Positions 4,107 to 20,432 of a stretch of DNA of 41,589 nt are shown here, one piece after another. The position numbers and the translations under genes were made by a program. The stretch lies in the IMG/VR virus record IMGVR_UViG_3300043444_000373, positions 1 to 41,589 of that record; one strand, 5' to 3'. The notes under the pieces were generated by a model. The model ran no database searches. It saw only the letters and a list, made by a program, of their open reading frames with translations, and had not been told where the DNA came from. Source of the DNA: a virus. Each line of letters opens with the position of its first letter. Positions within the stretch are counted from its first letter, which is position 1.

Positions 4107-6440
4107 ATGACAATTACAGTAATAAAAAGAAGCGGACAGAAAGAGCCGTTAATGATCGAGAAATGGCAGGCACAGGTGGCGAAAGTTTGTAAAGGTATTG
4201 CAGATGTTAGCCAATCGATGATAGAAATCAAAGCACAGTTGCATTTTTATGATGGCATCACTACCGAAGACATCGACGGAATCACACTAAGAGCGATAGT
4301 TGATCTTATCGATGTTGAAGCCAATCCGGATATCGGACACACTAATTATCAATTCGTAGCAGGTAAGCAAAGATTAAGTATGCTTCGCAAGGACGTATAT
4401 GGTCAATACGAGCCTCCCCACCTATATGAAATCGTAAAGAAAAATGTCAGTGTTGGCCTATACACTCCTGAGCTTTTAGAATGGTATAGTGAAGAAGATT
4501 GGAATAAGATGAATGACATGCTCGATCATGAAAAAGACGAGCAATACAGTTACGCAGCCATTGAACAATTGATCGAAAAGTATCTCGTGCGTAACCGAGC
4601 TACAAAGGAGATCTATGAAACACCACAGATTCGTTACATGGTTGCTGCCGCGACTGTATTCCATAAAGAAGAACCTAATGCAGCCCGTATGCGTTACATC
4701 AAAGAGTATTACAACGCGGCTTCAGATGGTCTGTTTACTCTTGCTACTCCTGTGTTGGCAGGGCTTGGGACTCCTACTAAACAGTTTTCTAGTTGTGTTC
4801 TTATCCGTAGTGACGACGATCTGGATAGCATATTTGCTAGTGGGGAGATGATGGCCAAGTATGCTAGCAAACGTGCTGGCATTGGTTTAGAGATTGGACG
4901 TCTAAGATCATTAGGTAGTCCTATCCGGGGTGGTGAAATCATGCACACTGGCATGATTCCTTTTTTAAAGAAGTGGTTCGGTGACTTACGTTCTTGCTCA
5001 CAAGGTGGTATTAGAAACGCTAGTGCTACAGTGTTTTATCCTATTTGGCATCATCAGTTTGATGACCTCATTGTTCTTAAGAACAATCAAGGAACTGAAG
5101 AAACTCGTGTCCGACACATGGACTACGGAGTTGTATTATCAGCGTTCTTTTGGCGTAGGTTTAAAAATAAGGAACATATTACGTTCTTTGATCCTAACGA
5201 AGTTCCTGATCTTTACGAAGCCTTCTATAAAGATACAGACCTGTTCGAAGATCTGTATGTCAAATATGAAAAGCGCAAAGACCTACGCAAAAAGGTAATG
5301 AGTGCTGAAGAAGTTTTCAAGGGTGGTATACTGAAAGAACGCACGGATACAGGTCGTATCTATTTGGTGTTTATTGATAATGTTATCAATCAAGGACCAT
5401 TTGATCCTGAATATCATACGATATATCAGAGTAACCTGTGCTGTGAGATTCTATTGCCCACACGTCCCTTTAAACGACTTGACGACGATAGTGGTCGCAT
5501 AGCGTTATGCACACTGGGATCTATCAACTGGGGATCGTTCCGAAATCCAGAGGACATGCGTAGAGCCTGCAGGATTCTACAGCGTAGCCTGTGTAACATC
5601 CTTGACTACCAAGACTTCTTGTCAATTCAAAGTAAATTGTCTAATGACGAGATACAGCCGTTAGGTATCGGTGTTACTAACCTTGCCTATTGGCATGCTA
5701 AGAGAGGAATAAAATATGGCGACAAAGACGCACTATCGGAAGTTAAAAGTTGGATGGAACATCAGGCCTTCTATCTCACTGAAGCCAGTGTCGAACTTGC
5801 AAAAGAGCGAGGCAAGTGTAAAGATTCAGACAGAACAAGATACGGACAGGGAATCTTCCCTTGGGAGCTCAGAGCCAAAGGAGTCGATCAACTTACAAAC
5901 TTCAATCCTGAACTTGATTGGGAATCTCTTAGGAAAGAAATGAAAGAGCACGGAGTTCGAAATGCTACATTGATGGCTATCGCTCCAGTTGAATCTAGTT
6001 CTGTTGTTATCAATTCAACTAATGGCATCGAAATGCCTATGAGTTTGATTTCTACCAAAGAATCAAAAGCAGGATCGTTTACACAGGTAGTTCCCGAATA
6101 CAATAGATTGAAAAACAAATATCAATTGATGTGGGAACAAAAAGACTGCGACGGGTATATCAAGACCGCCGCAGTATTAGCAGCCTATGTTGATCAAAGT
6201 ATTTCAACAAACACTTTCTATAATCCGGCACATTTTCCAGAACGTAAAGTTCCAACGACATTAATCGCTAAAAACTTAATGCAGGCTCATATGTGGGGTA
6301 TCAAAACTTTCTATTACAGTTTGATCAATAAAGCAGGAGCCAAACATGAAGATAAAACTCCCGAAGTGCATTATAACGGATTCCATGAAAGGGAAGTAGA
6401 AACTAGTATAGAAGAAGATTGCGAGGCATGTAAACTATGA
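4107..6440 (+). CDS. nrdA: Ribonucleoside-diphosphate reductase class Ia, large subunit
   Basis: A 777-residue catalytic subunit that converts ribonucleoside diphosphates to deoxyribonucleotides. It starts with an ATP-cone-like regulatory domain (VIKRSGQKEPLMIEKW). Active-site features are intact: the first redox cysteine in FSSCVLI, the N-L-C-C-E motif (thiyl cysteine and glutamate), the partner cysteine in ALCTLGSINWG, the radical-transfer tyrosine pair in IKTFYYSLI, and the C-terminal CEACKL pair that glutaredoxin or thioredoxin re-reduces. Length matches the E. coli enzyme (761). Its TGA overlaps the nrdB ATG, and glutaredoxin follows, so a full dNTP-supply module is present. Confidence 0.97.
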   Translation: MTITVIKRSGQKEPLMIEKWQAQVAKVCKGIADVSQSMIEIKAQLHFYDGITTEDIDGITLRAIVDLIDVEANPDIGHTNYQFVAGKQRLSMLRKDVYGQYEPPHLYEIVKKNVSVGLYTPELLEWYSEEDWNKMNDMLDHEKDEQYSYAAIEQLIEKYLVRNRATKEIYETPQIRYMVAAATVFHKEEPNAARMRYIKEYYNAASDGLFTLATPVLAGLGTPTKQFSSCVLIRSDDDLDSIFASGEMMAKYASKRAGIGLEIGRLRSLGSPIRGGEIMHTGMIPFLKKWFGDLRSCSQGGIRNASATVFYPIWHHQFDDLIVLKNNQGTEETRVRHMDYGVVLSAFFWRRFKNKEHITFFDPNEVPDLYEAFYKDTDLFEDLYVKYEKRKDLRKKVMSAEEVFKGGILKERTDTGRIYLVFIDNVINQGPFDPEYHTIYQSNLCCEILLPTRPFKRLDDDSGRIALCTLGSINWGSFRNPEDMRRACRILQRSLCNILDYQDFLSIQSKLSNDEIQPLGIGVTNLAYWHAKRGIKYGDKDALSEVKSWMEHQAFYLTEASVELAKERGKCKDSDRTRYGQGIFPWELRAKGVDQLTNFNPELDWESLRKEMKEHGVRNATLMAIAPVESSSVVINSTNGIEMPMSLISTKESKAGSFTQVVPEYNRLKNKYQLMWEQKDCDGYIKTAAVLAAYVDQSISTNTFYNPAHFPERKVPTTLIAKNLMQAHMWGIKTFYYSLINKAGAKHEDKTPEVHYNGFHEREVETSIEEDCEACKL

Positions 6441-9771: not shown

Positions 9772-9846
9772 GCGCTAGAAGCTGACCGGTCAAGCAGGAG
9801 CCTCTAAAACTCCGAGTAGTGGGTTCAATTCCCATCTAGCGCACCA
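9772..9846 (+). tRNA. tRNA with anticodon CTA (amber suppressor type)
   Basis: A cloverleaf can be drawn by hand. The acceptor GCGCTAG (9772-9778) pairs perfectly with CTAGCGC (9836-9842), followed by A and an encoded CCA. The T arm is GTGGG/CCCAT with loop TTCAATT. The D arm is GCT/AGC with GG in the loop. The anticodon stem GGAGC/ACTCC has four pairs and a C31-A39 mismatch. The loop CTCTAAA gives anticodon CTA at 9804-9806, with T33 and A37 as required. It should read UAG. The variable loop is short (class I), so Ser, Leu and Tyr are unlikely charges. Position 8 is A instead of the near-universal T. The charged amino acid is not predictable here. Confidence 0.85.
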
Positions 9847-9857
9847 AAGGATACACA

Positions 9858-9968
9858 ATGGTAGGTTACATTTCATTTTTAATTTTCTGGATTGTTTTTG
9901 GATACTTCTATCTAACAAGAGATAAATCCAAAGACGAAGAAAAAACAGAAAACTTTTATCTTCACTGA
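9858..9968 (+). CDS. Short single-pass membrane protein (36 residues)
   Basis: ATG at 9858, TGA at 9966-9968. The translation starts MVGYISFLIFWIVFGYFYL, one hydrophobic helix, followed by a charged tail (Arg, Lys, Asp, Glu). It lies 11 bases after the tRNA and its stop overlaps the next ATG (TGATG). No ribosome site stands out beyond a weak AAGG. Function unknown. Confidence 0.5.
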   Translation: MVGYISFLIFWIVFGYFYLTRDKSKDEEKTENFYLH

Positions 9969-10297
9969 TGTCTGAACATTTTGTCACTTGTTCATTATTA
10001 AAGAAACAAAAACAAGTAGTGTTTGATTATACAAAAAATCCCTGTAGTCTAACATTTACTGTTTCTGTAATTGAAAACAAAATAAGATCCAAAAAAGTCT
10101 CTACTGCTGTTTTCAAAATGGGCAAGCACAATACTTGGTATCCGCATCATATTGAAGTTGTTGGTGGATATAAACGCAAAGGGATTGCTACAATAATGTA
10201 TGATATTGTTCAAAGTGAAATTAATGGAACATTAGTTCCTAGCGATGAACAAAGCGACGAAGCTAAGGCGTTTTGGAAGAATAGAAATGCTGTTTAA
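9968..10297 (+). CDS. Small GNAT-like acetyltransferase
   Basis: A 109-residue protein with the acetyl-CoA binding pattern of GNAT enzymes: strand IEVVGGY, then Y-K-R-K-G-I-A followed by a helix (TIMYDIVQSEI), and a C-terminal segment SDEQSDEAKAFWKNR, typical of the SxxxxxxAxxFYxxxGF region in short form. At about 110 residues it is near the lower size limit. The substrate is unknown. Confidence 0.65.
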   Translation: MSEHFVTCSLLKKQKQVVFDYTKNPCSLTFTVSVIENKIRSKKVSTAVFKMGKHNTWYPHHIEVVGGYKRKGIATIMYDIVQSEINGTLVPSDEQSDEAKAFWKNRNAV

Positions 10298-10529
10298 CAC
10301 CAAAGAAGAAGTAGAAGCCTGGATCCGTAAAATTATGGGTCCTCCTAAGAGAATTCTTCTCGGCGAAGAACACGACAAGGTTTGGTTGATGTTGCAGATG
10401 GCTGAGCCTGTTAGAGAAACTAACAATCAGCGTAGCTTTTGCGTTGAATACAATCTAGGTGGGAAGATGTATGATGTGCATTATCTCCCCGGAGAAGAAC
10501 CGTTTATTGAAGAATATCTAGATGAATAA
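10287..10529 (+). CDS. Small phage protein, function unknown
   Basis: An 80-residue protein if it starts at ATG 10287 (GGAAG site about 9 bases upstream), which is more plausible than an in-frame ATG at 10245 buried in the acetyltransferase gene. The sequence has a helix (KEEVEAWIRKIMG), then beta segments (DKVWLMLQMAEPV, SFCVEYNLGGKMYDVHYL) and an acidic end. It overlaps its neighbours at both ends. No function is recognised. Confidence 0.65.
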   Translation: MLFNTKEEVEAWIRKIMGPPKRILLGEEHDKVWLMLQMAEPVRETNNQRSFCVEYNLGGKMYDVHYLPGEEPFIEEYLDE

Positions 10530-10737
10530 AAAATACAACCCATTTAAGATTGGACAGCGTCTCTACAAAGACGGACTAGGTGTTTCCGATATTTGGGGTG
10601 CTGTTAAAAGCGACAGTGATATGGACGAAGCATTTCGCGGCTATGAATATGAAATGACCAAAGCCATCAAACGTGCTGAACAAAAAGAAATTAAATCAAA
10701 GTTAGGCTATAGCCGTATTGGATTAAACAATGTATAA
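10522..10737 (+). CDS. Small basic protein, function unknown
   Basis: A 71-residue protein overlapping the previous stop by 8 bases and the next start by 8 bases. It starts MNKKYNPFKIGQRLYKDGLG and ends in a Lys/Arg-rich helix. The tight overlaps show it is translated as part of the small-protein run from 9858 to 10909. Function unknown. Confidence 0.6.
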   Translation: MNKKYNPFKIGQRLYKDGLGVSDIWGAVKSDSDMDEAFRGYEYEMTKAIKRAEQKEIKSKLGYSRIGLNNV

Positions 10738-10909
10738 CGAATACTTCAAATCACAGATAGAAGAAGGTGCTACAGAAATGTTTTTCTATGCTATTGAGCA
10801 GGAAGGCAATTTGAGAATCGAACGGCATCGTGGCGCACTAGAGACATTTCCCGATCTTGAATATGTGCGCCATTTAACTGATGGTGTGCCTTTATTCAAG
10901 AATAAATAA
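10730..10909 (+). CDS. Small protein of 59 residues, function unknown
   Basis: ATG at 10730 overlaps the previous stop; TAA at 10907-10909. The translation begins MYNEYFKSQIEEGATEMFFY and has an alternating pattern consistent with a small alpha/beta fold, ending FKNK. No known motif. Confidence 0.55.
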   Translation: MYNEYFKSQIEEGATEMFFYAIEQEGNLRIERHRGALETFPDLEYVRHLTDGVPLFKNK

Positions 10910-10923
10910 ATTTGTAGCAGGTG

Positions 10924-10974
10924 CTATAAAACCAACACTCTTTAAATTTTAGGTCTTTAGAGTGTAGACCGTAA
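10924..10974 (+). promoter_or_regulatory. Structured leader of the 10987 gene
   Basis: An extended -10 (TGC then TATAAA at 10924-10929) is followed by two interlocking stems. ACACTCT (10935-10941) pairs with AGAGTGT (10959-10965), and GGTCT (10952-10956) pairs with AGACC (10966-10970). No nucleotides separate the last two arms, so both stems are unlikely to form fully together and may be alternatives. The ribosome site AAGGAGA follows at once. This could be a translational switch or simply an mRNA-stabilising leader. Confidence 0.4.
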
Positions 10975-10986
10975 CAAGGAGAAAAC

Positions 10987-11709
10987 ATGATGTATGAATC
11001 AAAGCTCGCCGCGGCAATCAAAGTAGACGGCAAAGTCCTACGTGAATTCAAAGATACAGTTCACATTCCATTTGGCAGTGAATATACTGTCCTACTAAAA
11101 AATCTCAATACCACTCGTGCAGTAGTCAATGTCTTTATCGACGGAGAGAATGCCGTTCCTGGCGGATTGGTCGTAGACCCGGGTCGAGAAGTCGACTTAG
11201 AGCGTTGGATTAAAAACGGCAATCTTTCCGAAGGTAATCGTTTTAAATTCATTGAACGCACAGGCGCAGTAGAACAACACAGAGGAATCGGTATTGAAGA
11301 TGGGTTGGTAAGGATCGAATTTCAATTTGAACAACCACCTCGTCCTATCGTTTGGAACACTAGCCAAATATCCGGAGGCATTTATCCACAAGGCGGAATT
11401 ATGCGTGGCATGGATGTTTCTTATAGCACAAATGCTACCTTAAACTCTGTTACAGCTTCTGCAACCTCTGCTGTTTCTGATGTTGGTATCACTGTTCCCG
11501 GTAGTCATAGCTCACAGAAGTTCAGCACTGCCTATGTCGGTGCCTTGGAAAGTGTCAAACACTCGATGGTGTTCAAACTGTTCGGCGGCACTATGCCTAA
11601 GCCTATCACAGTCAAACATAAACCAAAGTGTGTTACCTGCGGAAAGCATAATAAAGCTACCAGCAAGTTTTGCCAAGAGTGTGGCACAGCGTTAGAAATT
11701 TTTGCTTAA
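10987..11709 (+). CDS. Beta-rich protein with C-terminal zinc ribbon
   Basis: A 240-residue protein. Residues 1-120 are beta-rich (for example YTVLLKNLNTTRAVVNVFIDG) and look like an immunoglobulin or jelly-roll type domain. A Ser/Thr/Ala-rich linker follows, and the C-terminus holds a zinc ribbon C-x2-C ... C-x2-C in KCVTCGKHNKATSKFCQECG. It has a strong AAGGAGA site and a structured leader, and is followed directly by a terminator, so it is a single-gene unit. The zinc ribbon suggests a nucleic-acid or protein-binding role; the function is unknown. Confidence 0.75.
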   Translation: MMYESKLAAAIKVDGKVLREFKDTVHIPFGSEYTVLLKNLNTTRAVVNVFIDGENAVPGGLVVDPGREVDLERWIKNGNLSEGNRFKFIERTGAVEQHRGIGIEDGLVRIEFQFEQPPRPIVWNTSQISGGIYPQGGIMRGMDVSYSTNATLNSVTASATSAVSDVGITVPGSHSSQKFSTAYVGALESVKHSMVFKLFGGTMPKPITVKHKPKCVTCGKHNKATSKFCQECGTALEIFA

Positions 11710-11716
11710 TCTAACC

Positions 11717-11744
11717 AAAAGGGTCTTGACGACCCTTTTGTTTT
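11717..11744 (+). terminator. Intrinsic terminator containing a promoter -35 box
   Basis: AAAAGGGTC (11717-11725), loop TTGAC, GACCCTTTT (11731-11739), then GTTTTA. The loop and first stem base supply TTGACG, the -35 box of the following promoter. Confidence 0.85.
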
Positions 11745-11754
11745 ATTATACAAT
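11726..11754 (+). promoter_or_regulatory. Sigma70-like promoter for the AAA ATPase gene
   Basis: TTGACG at 11726-11731 inside the terminator hairpin, a 17-base spacer, then TACAAT at 11749-11754. Transcription would start near 11761, giving a leader of about 28 bases with a GAAAGAG site. Confidence 0.65.
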
Positions 11755-11788
11755 AAGGGCTTGTTTTAATTAATCTTGAAAGAGCGTA

Positions 11789-12865
11789 ATGACTTATTTT
11801 GTTAAACACGGCAATTCTTACACAGTTTCTAAAAAAGAAGCACTGGATATCCATGAGCATCTTCCTGCAGGAAACTACGTCATTAAGAAAAATGAAATGA
11901 CTGGTCAACTGTTTCTAGAACAAATTGACAAGTTTGAAATCAAAGGTAAGATCTATGGCGATACTCTAAAACGTGCCGATCGTATCCTTCACTCTTTTGA
12001 AGATCGCCCGTCTACTACTGGAGTGATGCTCACCGGTGAAAAAGGTTCCGGAAAGACTCTGCTGGCTAAGATGTTGTCGGTCAAAGGCTACGATAGGGGG
12101 TATCCTACTATCGTTGTCAATCAGCCATGGTGCGGTGAAGCATTTAATGCCTTTATTCAAAGCATCGAGCAGCCTATGGTTGTAGTCTTTGACGAATACG
12201 AAAAGGTCTACGATGAACACGAACAAGAATTGATGCTGACTCTGCTCGACGGAGTGTATCCAACTAAAAAGTTGTTTGTTCTCACCTGTAACGACAAATG
12301 GCGTGTGAACAGCCATATGCGTAACCGACCTGGTCGTATCTTTTATTCTTTGGAATATAAAGGTTTGGATGCAGACTTCATCCGTGAATACTGCCAAGAC
12401 AATCTAAAAGCCAAAGATCATATTGAAAAAATCGTAGGTATCGCAGGAACTTTTGATCAATTCAATTTCGACATGCTCAAAGCGTTGGTCGAGGAAATGA
12501 ATCGTTACAACGAAACTCCTCAAGAGGCTATGCAGATGTTGAATACTAAGCCGGAATACAGCAGCAATTCTCGTTACACTGTTAAGCTCATGCTCGACGG
12601 TGAGGAAGTGGCTCAAACCAATATGGAAGAAAAAGAGTGGGAAGGTAACCCTCTTAACAAGACTGTTGGAATCAGCTACAAAGTTGTCGAAAATGCCGGC
12701 ACTGACGACGAATGCTGGGATTGGGAGAGCATCCGATTCACTCCGTCAGAGTTGAAGAAGATTGATGAAGATGGTTCTAAGTATGTGTTTACTAACAAGG
12801 ATGGTGCGAGCCTCATCCTTACTAAGGTAAAAGAAAAAACTTACACTTACTGGGATGCGCTTTAA
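11789..12865 (+). CDS. AAA-family ATPase
   Basis: A 358-residue protein with a single AAA module: Walker A GEKGSGKT (residues 83-90), Walker B VVVFDEYE (131-138), sensor segment VLTCND and an arginine-finger-like RNRPGR. The N-terminal 75 residues and the C-terminal 100 residues (acidic and beta-rich, ending YTYWDAL) are outside known domains. Phages of the T4 type often carry such single AAA proteins, possibly in DNA or protein remodelling, but the substrate cannot be inferred. It is bounded by a promoter nested in the upstream terminator and a strong terminator downstream. Confidence 0.88.
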   Translation: MTYFVKHGNSYTVSKKEALDIHEHLPAGNYVIKKNEMTGQLFLEQIDKFEIKGKIYGDTLKRADRILHSFEDRPSTTGVMLTGEKGSGKTLLAKMLSVKGYDRGYPTIVVNQPWCGEAFNAFIQSIEQPMVVVFDEYEKVYDEHEQELMLTLLDGVYPTKKLFVLTCNDKWRVNSHMRNRPGRIFYSLEYKGLDADFIREYCQDNLKAKDHIEKIVGIAGTFDQFNFDMLKALVEEMNRYNETPQEAMQMLNTKPEYSSNSRYTVKLMLDGEEVAQTNMEEKEWEGNPLNKTVGISYKVVENAGTDDECWDWESIRFTPSELKKIDEDGSKYVFTNKDGASLILTKVKEKTYTYWDAL

Positions 12866-12877
12866 TAAATAAAAACC

Positions 12878-12903
12878 TAGGGGGTGAAAGGCCCCCTACT
12901 TTT
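12878..12903 (+). terminator. Intrinsic terminator
   Basis: TAGGGGG (12878-12884) pairs with CCCCCTA (12892-12898), loop TGAAAGG, followed by CTTTT. It separates the AAA ATPase from the amber-containing gene, whose ribosome site starts at 12904. Confidence 0.8.
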
Positions 12904-12916
12904 AAAGGAAAATAAA

Positions 12917-13477
12917 ATGTCGTAGATTGAATATGCTTGTAAGGACGTGGTGTTCCATTTTAACAAAAAACACCTAGAGGACCAAACCATACCTATGTGG
13001 GTCCTAAAAACACATGGGGAATCATTTTACGTTGATCACGTAACCTGCGAGATACCTTGGACTACCAAGGAAACACCAGACAACTCGCACACCAAAGGCA
13101 GTATCAAAGTCAAAGATTGTTTGCTGACAATCGACGAAGAAAACTCTGCCACTATCAGTAATCTTTCAGTATTTGATAAAATCCGCTTACGCAACCAAAA
13201 GTTGGGTATCACTAGGATCATGTTCTCTTGGGGATCCAAGATGCACACAGCATTGGCTGGCAACGAGTTCAAGCACAGTCCTTTTAAAAATGTAGAAGGT
13301 TCGTGTGGAACTAGTTACGTGATCTGCGATCTACTAAAGAAAGAGGAAGCCACTTTGGCAGCGTTAAAGTATCCAAACTCGTGGCGCATACTCAAACCAA
13401 ACGAGGTCTACTATCAGCGATACGATCAGAAAGGCACGATTTGGGAAGATGAGGATCTTGACGACGATGACGAATGA
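12917..13477 (+). CDS. Phage protein with in-frame amber (TAG) at codon 3
   Basis: The best start is ATG 12917, seven bases after AAAGGA. It reads Met-Ser-TAG-Ile-Glu-Tyr-Ala-Cys-Lys-Asp and then continues open to TGA at 13475-13477, 187 codons including the TAG (12923-12925). Codons after the TAG look coding (IEYACKDVVFHFNKKHLED). A tRNA with anticodon CTA lies 3 kb upstream, so readthrough gives a plausible full protein. The alternatives are GTG starts at 12947 or 12950; an AAGGA at 12941-12945 could serve the second at a short spacing of 4. The body has no recognised domain; the tail is very acidic (EDEDLDDDDE). Confidence 0.75.
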
Positions 13478-13486
13478 TAGTTAAAT
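13458..13486 (+). promoter_or_regulatory. Probable promoter of the tmRNA
   Basis: TTGACG at 13458-13463, a 17-base spacer, TTAAAT at 13481-13486. It lies in the end of the upstream gene and would start transcription near 13493, just before the tmRNA acceptor piece. Confidence 0.5.
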
Positions 13487-13492
13487 AACAGT

Positions 13493-13557
13493 ATTGTTGT
13501 AATTCCTTCAAAGCGAAGGCATGTTGGACGGCGGTTCGATTCCGCCCAGGTCCACCA
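13493..13557 (+). ncRNA. ssrA: Permuted tmRNA, acceptor (3') piece
   Basis: The tRNA-like 3' half lies upstream of the 5' half, the hallmark of two-piece permuted tmRNA. T stem GGCGG (13530-13534) and CCGCC (13542-13546) enclose TTCGATT. The acceptor strand CAGGTCC (13547-13553) pairs fully with GGGCCTG at 13624-13630, including the G3-U70 wobble read by alanyl-tRNA synthetase; A and CCA follow. A hairpin CCTTC/GAAGG lies at 13505-13519. The 5' end is estimated. The intervening segment (13558-13623) is closed by a 12-pair helix (13557-13568 with 13609-13620) and would be cut out. Confidence 0.9.
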
Positions 13558-13623
13558 AAAGAATTCTTCACCCTGTATAGAGACAGACAAGTGCTATAGA
13601 CTATACTAAAGAGTTCTTTTGAG

Positions 13624-13834
13624 GGGCCTGACAAGGTTTCGACAGCGTGAGATAGTAGAGACGGCAACACGGTAGGCGATGACCGTAAATCAAGCAAAAC
13701 CTATAAATGCAAACGAAGACGCATTTGACTTCGCAGCACTAAGCTTCACAGGTAACACTGTGGGTGGTCGTGTTGCACTAGCAGCCTAAGAAACTGCAAG
13801 TCGGGGGTAGCTATACCTTCTTACCCAAAATAGT
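13624..13834 (+). ncRNA. ssrA: Permuted tmRNA, coding (5') piece with 26-codon tag
   Basis: The mature 5' end is GGGCCTG at 13624. The tag reading frame begins with the resume codon GCA at 13709-13711 and runs 26 codons to TAA at 13787-13789. The tag starts ANEDAFDFAAL and ends RVALAA, so it carries the usual ANxxx start and the LAA-type degradation end, but is long compared with the 10 residues of E. coli. The role is rescue of stalled ribosomes by trans-translation and marking of the product for proteolysis. A G-rich pseudoknot-like 3' region follows, then a strong terminator. The 3' end is estimated. Confidence 0.92.
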
Positions 13835-13860
13835 AAAAGTGGCCTTCGGGCCACTTTTTT
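13835..13860 (+). terminator. Intrinsic terminator of the tmRNA
   Basis: AAAAGTGGCC (13835-13844), loop TTCG, GGCCACTTTTTT (13849-13860). A strong stem with a stable tetraloop and a T tract. Confidence 0.92.
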
Positions 13861-13861
13861 A

Positions 13862-13890
13862 TTGACTTCTTAGTATTTTCACTATATACT
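13862..13890 (+). promoter_or_regulatory. Sigma70-like promoter for the outer-membrane barrel gene
   Basis: TTGACT at 13862-13867, a 17-base spacer, TATACT at 13885-13890. It gives a leader of about 65 bases that contains GTGTGTTTTCC...ACACAC complementary segments, possibly a stabilising hairpin, before the AAGGA site. Confidence 0.75.
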
Positions 13891-19614: not shown

Positions 19615-20085
19615 ATGAAAAAGGCAATCGCAGTAGGCATTTTGGCAGCAGCTATTACGGGTTGTTCGTCAATGAAAGATATTCCAGACCGTAAGACTTA
19701 CGCACAGCCCAGTTGGTATCAAGACTGTGCTCAAGAAGGCGTCAAAGGTTGGTTCTGGTGGAAAGAAGATTATGTCTATGCCTGTGGCGCAGGTGAGTCA
19801 GCTTACGCTCAAGCCGCAGAAGAGCAGATGGACGCAATCGCTATGAATAACTTTGCCAAACGCATCAACGGCAAAGTCAATTCGGAAACTGTAATTGATA
19901 TCAAAGATGACAAGAAAACCACTCGCACTTTGATCAGCTATAAGGTTACAGACACAGCCATCCGCAAACATGTCAAAAGTGAAAAAGGCCACTTCACTAT
20001 GAACGGACGTCATTACACTTATGTTCGTCTTGAAATGAAGAAGTCTACCTTTGAGCAATTGATGGCTGAAGCCAAGGCACAATAA
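19615..20085 (+). CDS. Lipoprotein, LPP20-like
   Basis: A 156-residue lipoprotein. The signal ends in lipobox ITGC, making C17 the lipidated residue. The mature part (PSWYQDC, ACGAGESAYAQAAEEQMDAI, then an alpha/beta domain with VNSETVIDIKDD and YTYVRLEMKK) resembles the LPP20 family found in flagellar and outer-membrane lipoproteins of bacteria. Its TAA overlaps the next ATG. A phage lipoprotein could block superinfection or alter the envelope; no direct evidence. Confidence 0.75.
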   Translation: MKKAIAVGILAAAITGCSSMKDIPDRKTYAQPSWYQDCAQEGVKGWFWWKEDYVYACGAGESAYAQAAEEQMDAIAMNNFAKRINGKVNSETVIDIKDDKKTTRTLISYKVTDTAIRKHVKSEKGHFTMNGRHYTYVRLEMKKSTFEQLMAEAKAQ

Positions 20086-20432
20086 TGGAAGCCAAAGAAA
20101 AACTTTGGCTAGTCATCTTAGCCATGGTGATCGTTGTATTCATCATGTCCGGCTGTTCGTCTGCTCCGAGGGTGCAGGCACAACAACCTCAATATTGTTA
20201 TACCAGTCAAACTATCGTGACTGAAAATAATGAACGAGTAAACAGTCGAACACAGGTCGAATGCACAGATGATCAAGTCAAACGCTTAACTGTAGCTCGG
20301 GTTGGATTATCAAATAATTGTGGTTATTTTACTAGCTGGATGAAGAAAGGTGGGCGAGATGTCCAATATCGTGCGATCAGTTGTCAGTTGCCTGATGGTA
20401 GCTGGGAAATTGTCGATACTTACGGCCAGTAG
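20085..20432 (+). CDS. Small lipoprotein, the only gene here ending in TAG
   Basis: A 115-residue protein. Residues 8-23 are hydrophobic and end in lipobox MSGC (C24). The mature part is polar with several cysteines (CYTSQTIV, ECTDDQV, NNCGYF, ISCQLPDGSW). The stop at 20430-20432 is TAG; readthrough would add 10 codons to another TAG and then more to a TAA in overlap with the next gene, which does not look like real coding extension. It overlaps the 19615 gene (TAATG). Confidence 0.72.
   Translation: MEAKEKLWLVILAMVIVVFIMSGCSSAPRVQAQQPQYCYTSQTIVTENNERVNSRTQVECTDDQVKRLTVARVGLSNNCGYFTSWMKKGGRDVQYRAISCQLPDGSWEIVDTYGQ

Follow-up and report, generated by a model that had tools for sequence, protein, structure and literature searches.

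The RF2 gene (prfB) contains a single early in-frame UGA and is autoregulated by +1 frameshifting, and in the pyrrolysine system (tRNA-Pyl/PylS) the decoding of UAG is confined to a few specific genes and relies on a dedicated CUA tRNA. Phages with genetic code 15, among them crAss-like and huge phages, encode a CTA tRNA that reads TAG while the code of the host is standard, and many of their genes contain internal TAGs (PMC9523058, PMC13037316). The 41.6-kb IMG/VR virus record IMGVR_UViG_3300043444_000373, analysed over its whole length and referred to below as the window, pairs an amber-suppressor tRNA of anticodon CTA with a gene interrupted by TAG at its third codon. As in code-15 phages, a phage CTA tRNA would read TAG under a standard host code; as in the pyrrolysine system, this dedicated tRNA would serve few specific genes; and as in RF2, where the product is a translation factor, one early in-frame stop would gate one gene. 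Unlike code-15 recoding, however, only one or two genes are concerned, each interrupted once by a TAG in its first ten codons, and many other genes still end in TAG; unlike RF2, there is no break in the frame, and the phage itself encodes a tRNA that matches the stop. We consider it highly probable that the suppressor tRNA of the phage opens a gene-specific translational gate on proteins linked to tRNA recycling.

The stop-blocked gene of the window (12917–13477, plus strand) is preceded by the Shine-Dalgarno sequence AAAGGA (12904–12909), 7 bases 5' of the ATG at 12917. It begins with this start and one sense codon (ATG-TCG, Met-Ser; 12917–12922), followed by the in-frame TAG that is the proposed gate (12923–12925) and by the body of the gene (12926–13477), which comprises 183 sense codons and ends with TGA at 13475. 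The first-pass annotation had described the same Shine-Dalgarno sequence, start and Met-Ser-TAG; the open run after the TAG that it reported is present as well, although its length of 184 codons was off by one. The predicted product, here called the FHFNKK protein (183 aa), was modelled with AlphaFold2 from 87 sequences (mean predicted local distance difference test score 88.6) as an N-terminal all-beta and a C-terminal alpha/beta domain, with beta strand 1 at residues 2–12, directly after the TAG. The tRNA lies upstream on the same strand (9772–9846). ARAGORN assigns it the anticodon CTA (9804–9806), it scores 49.6 bits against Rfam RF00005 (cut-off 29), and its predicted fold is a cloverleaf with acceptor GCGCTAG/CTAGCGC, discriminator A73 and an encoded CCA. 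The claim of a well-formed CTA tRNA is thus borne out by three approaches; the ARAGORN tRNA model, checked for a possible other anticodon, returned CTA.

A search of IMG/VR yielded 71 loci at first and many more later. In all, the short FHFNKK domain has relatives in 406 stretches; the best 80 per search were fetched, and dereplication at 90% identity gave 121 genes. An in-frame TAG stands just 5' of the conserved stretch IEYACKDVVFHFNKK in 115 of the 118 first loci, with an ATG and a Shine-Dalgarno-like sequence ahead of it in nearly all of the 115. After dereplication the TAG is found at this site in 107 of the 121 relatives and is missing from 14, and none of the 121 has TAA or TGA at the gate position; because of this, the early TAG is judged not to be due to chance. 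Counts over 108 loci given here and below include L310, which was miscounted in that its gene starts with an ATG after the TAG (true number 107). The ATG precedes the TAG by one to nine codons, most often by two (68/108 dereplicated loci). In 87 gap-free relatives the TAG is invariant (87/87), whereas 45% of pairs disagree at neighbouring third positions: over the nine codons after the TAG, codon positions 1, 2 and 3 differ in 18.5, 16.0 and 44.7% of comparisons, and upstream of the Shine-Dalgarno sequence the differences are 0.72, 0.73 and 0.72 at the three positions. As far as sequence comparison goes, the gene of the relatives is translated as a protein from the codon directly after the TAG. 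Homologues starting at 12947 or 12950 were looked for and not found, the protein being conserved from that codon on. Dereplicated relatives have I, V, N, K, T or Q directly after the TAG, and this codon is therefore not a hidden start. The base directly after the TAG is A in 82 of the 87 gap-free relatives; a purine directly after a stop favours suppression. The same layout occurs in the cultured Rhizobium phage RHph_I1_18 (MSEFM-TAG-NESCREVIFHFNK), the CTA tRNA of which lies just downstream of the gated gene; GenBank annotates this tRNA, not the gene.

Three other accounts of the reading frame were rejected. With beta strand 1 at residues 2–12, a start at GTG 12947 or 12950 would fall inside the strand and lose conserved residues. 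An ATT start after the TAG is contradicted by the variation of that codon to non-start codons, and sequencing error or a pseudogene by the TAG in 107 dereplicated relatives and by purifying selection.

The pairing of early TAG and tRNA proposed for the window is kept across a large and diverse set of phages. Of the 108 counted loci, 86 have a CTA tRNA called by ARAGORN in the fetched DNA, on the strand of the gene in all 86, upstream of it in 79 and within 300 bp in 22. A covariance model or pattern recovered CTA tRNAs in the long records of L276, L289, L290, L312, L318, L069, L077, L294 and L105, where ARAGORN had missed them; nearly all long records with a gated gene also encode a CTA tRNA. 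The sequence of the tRNA and its distance to the gated gene vary, yet the pair persists, and other neighbours are poorly kept, the next best window gene being common to 44 of 107 loci.

In 12 of the 14 TAG-free FHFNKK genes (Phosso, Atu_ph07, six rhizobial-type loci, L282, L310, L327 and L347), the stop lies instead in an upstream gene for a peptidyl-tRNA hydrolase (PTH2-type). In Phosso this gene reads ATG-AAG-TAT-TAG, with a CTA tRNA 4.4 kb upstream, and its orthologue in Atu_ph07 reads ATG-ATT-GGC-GAA-CAC-TTT-TGA, with a TCA tRNA present and a CTA tRNA absent. In these orthologous genes stop and anticodon covary, TAG with CTA and TGA with TCA, on the sequences at hand. In Phosso and Atu_ph07 alike, the stretch from the stop to PTH2 strand 1 is free of ATG, GTG and TTG, and GenBank begins both proteins at an internal Met. 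Eleven further PTH2 loci from IMG/VR have the TAG in 11/11, the 6 kb fetched for eight of them also containing a CTA tRNA, and in L320 both the PTH2 and the FHFNKK gene carry a TAG. Membership of PTH2 was assessed with Pfam PF01981 (gathering cut-off 23), which scored the gated genes of Phosso, Atu_ph07, L282, L320 and XacN1 (ORF364, see below) at 72.9, 73.9, 88.9, 67.7 and 25.3, respectively; those of L347, L310 and L327 fell below the cut-off. Exceptions in which the stop has moved to a PTH2 gene support the rule. L347 (~5505–5620) and L310 (~5218–5330) contain a second in-frame ATG-xxx-TAG-ATT-AAC some 30–40 codons upstream of the gated PTH2-like gene. The remaining two TAG-free exceptions are L323 (see below) and a Paenibacillus locus with no local CTA tRNA; in Paenibacillus sp. 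FSL H7-0326 (L120, 9965–10222) a TAG-free short FHFNKK gene sits within an array of tRNA genes on a bacterial contig of 1.1 Mb. Phage PTH2 genes are uninterrupted in phiM12, SCTP-2, RAS14 (other copy), Baka and XacN1 (ORF295).

XacN1 ORF364 encodes a protein with a C-terminal PTH2-like domain and has ATG-AAG-TAG ahead of its annotated start; L406, 73% identical to it, keeps the TAG. RAS14 had been chosen as a control because its ordinary PTH2 gene is uninterrupted. It turned out to encode a CTA tRNA, and a scan showed that its ORF364 orthologue starts ATG-AAG-TAG (Met-Lys-TAG) and that 22 codons then pass before a start codon appears; the coding sequence in GenBank begins downstream. XacN1, L406 and RAS14 together constitute a third, independently recognised case of a stop-blocked gene.

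Several observations weigh against a gate of this kind. L323 has a CTA tRNA, yet a gated gene was not found in the fetched 12 kb. Conversely, a TAG gene without a detected CTA tRNA occurs in L279, L301/L054 and L313, all of which are fragments. In XacN1 and L406 the TAG is followed within a few codons by an in-frame ATG, although the Shine-Dalgarno sequence is spaced for the first ATG. In phiM12, which has a TTA tRNA, a scan gave no TAA-gated gene, so that the prediction failed there. Ochre-suppressor tRNAs with anticodon TTA are located at 106714–106789 in phiM12 and at 302428–302502 in RAS14; target genes were not found for either.

Among 110 distinct CTA tRNAs with encoded CCA, G1-C72 occurs in 107 and C2-G71 in 102, and the discriminator is A73 in 96 and G73 in 14. 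G1-C72/C2-G71/G3-C70 resembles phage tRNA-Gly, except that the latter has U73; in an isotype comparison the nearest elongator tRNAs were scattered. In the rhizobial clade (Phosso and eight relatives) a 250-aa class II aminoacyl-tRNA synthetase-like core adjoins the CTA tRNA (Phosso 172390–173142, equivalent to L355 1891–2643; the same type in L264–L268, L270, L272 and L274). It is closest to glycyl-tRNA synthetase, is too short for the usual anticodon-binding domain, and is possibly a dedicated synthetase for the suppressor tRNA.

The presence of a CTA tRNA and the rarity of TAG at the ends of window genes could also reflect a genome-wide change of code in which TAG means an amino acid, as in code 15, the gated gene being one example. 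TAG ends none of the 47 called window genes of at least 90 aa. The first-pass annotation had found it nearly absent as a stop, which holds for the window, although the scarcity, set beside 3.5–8% of genes in near-complete relatives, is partly a matter of small numbers; the TAG-ending gene it named (20085–20432) is followed by a second in-frame TAG and then a TAA within 22 codons, and its product would gain about 20 residues if the TAG were suppressed. Near-complete related genomes with a CTA tRNA have 12–51 called genes each that end in TAG, the share in near-complete relatives being 3.5–11.6% of called genes, and therefore the code is not reassigned, as the first-pass annotation had argued. 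In a comparative scan of the fetched loci, a conserved in-frame TAG emerged in no further gene; beyond the gated family, the matches listed by an all-frame scan include apparent shadow frames and tRNA-derived matches. With its case largely refuted by stop usage, a code change is extremely improbable. We regard it as very improbable, too, that ATG-xxx-TAG is a two-codon leader after which ribosomes reinitiate at a non-standard start. Short ATG-stop minigenes are known from bacteria and phages (PMC8708949), and the codon after the TAG is most often ATT (79/108), a rare start codon. But AAC, AAA, ACT and CAA, which are non-starts, are found there as well; a leader could end in TAA or TGA, yet the stop is always TAG; and both the CTA tRNA and the switch to TGA/TCA in Atu_ph07 would be left unexplained.

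There is little likelihood that the inserted residue matters in itself, as a special amino acid comparable to pyrrolysine or selenocysteine, to which the dedicated CUA tRNA and the adjoining rhizobial synthetase-like core might point. Against this, and in contrast to the pyrrolysine system, no pyrrolysyl-tRNA synthetase (PylS) scored above cut-off in any of 14 records, some of which are fragments; the site lies at the extreme N-terminus, before the first beta strand; and its residue is not conserved in the TAG-free relatives, which start with Met at the gate position or the adjoining codon. With a start so close to the gate in these relatives, the identity of the amino acid inserted at the TAG probably matters little. 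A last alternative accepts the decoding and dispenses with regulation: the stop would be a trap that preserves the tRNA gene by making the phage dependent on it (addiction). The persistence of the pair, despite variable tRNA sequence and distance and the turnover of other neighbours, fits such a trap. The recurrence of the stop in PTH2-linked genes, and its position among the first ten codons, would be left unexplained by it, and we think addiction unlikely.

Searches of Pfam, PHROGs and NCBIfam at the usual thresholds revealed no relative of the FHFNKK protein, and neither of two models matched a PDB structure at E ≤ 0.001, the matches being weak and RRM-like only. PADLOC gave no link to defence. 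That the C-terminal domain might be a degenerate PTH2 was considered and rejected, as hhalign was negative (E 0.6–0.8 for both domains against PTH2) and no Pfam match was obtained. Directly downstream of the gated gene and overlapping its end lies a permuted transfer-messenger RNA (tmRNA) gene (13465–13880, plus strand; ARAGORN tmRNA*; Rfam RF04321 147 bits, RF01850 144 bits), possibly a functional neighbour in ribosome rescue; ARAGORN predicts an unusually long tag for it, ANEDAFDFAALSFTGNTVGGRVALAA. In many related phages a permuted tmRNA lies close to the CTA tRNA. The interval that separates the upstream AAA ATPase gene from the Shine-Dalgarno sequence of the gated gene contains a GGGGG/CCCCC hairpin followed by TTTT (12878–12903), which resembles a terminator. 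The FHFNKK protein may take part in tRNA recycling or ribosome rescue, to judge from the PTH2 genes, the tRNA arrays and the frequent permuted tmRNA with which it is associated.

Taken over all loci, sequence evidence strongly supports read-through of the gate stop. The mRNA would offer a Shine-Dalgarno sequence and ATG, a few sense codons and then UAG, usually at codon 3. In the absence of the phage CUA tRNA, ribosomes would release a very short peptide at the UAG, and the protein would not be produced. Once transcribed, usually from the same strand and a little upstream, and charged, the tRNA would compete with release factor at the UAG and allow full-length protein to be produced, so that the gated protein would be switched on only after the tRNA is made. 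The products would form a tRNA-recycling or ribosome-rescue group, namely a PTH2-type peptidyl-tRNA hydrolase and/or an FHFNKK-domain protein; we infer this functional grouping, the efficiency of read-through and its regulatory purpose. Hundreds of large phages combine an early-stop gene with their own stop-reading tRNA, and production of the protein probably requires the latter. In E. coli, peptidyl-tRNA drop-off takes place within the first ~16 codons (PMC10192219); on this basis the gate could act as a feedback sensor: an early, slow UAG would promote drop-off and trap the suppressor as peptidyl-tRNA, and the gated product (peptidyl-tRNA hydrolase or FHFNKK protein) would free it and so open its own gate. 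We put this forward tentatively and hold it to be rather doubtful; if true, a private codon would gauge the state of the tRNA pool, which would amount to a new class of regulation.

The authors of the XacN1 genome sought read-through targets of its two CUA tRNAs and identified none (PMC5852040), and the Atu_ph07 paper noted an opal suppressor (UCA tRNA) and named no specific target gene (PMC6102473). The arrangement was not described in the open-access literature searched; subscription papers and preprints were mostly outside that search, so its novelty is provisional. New relative to the first-pass annotation are the shift of the stop to the upstream PTH2 gene, the TGA/TCA covariation and the recurrence in XacN1 and RAS14. 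XacN1 ORF364 and the Atu_ph07 PTH2 gene are candidate targets for such 'orphan' phage suppressor tRNAs, which would thereby be linked to peptidyl-tRNA recycling. Gated genes are cut short or missed by gene callers, as in RHph_I1_18, RAS14, Phosso and Atu_ph07. A stop-blocked gene with its own tRNA appears to be a genetic switch that had not been described before and that is linked to an enzyme of tRNA recycling; if this is true, a private stop codon would serve these phages as a gene-specific on-switch that leaves the genetic code unchanged, and would provide a testable and portable translational switch.

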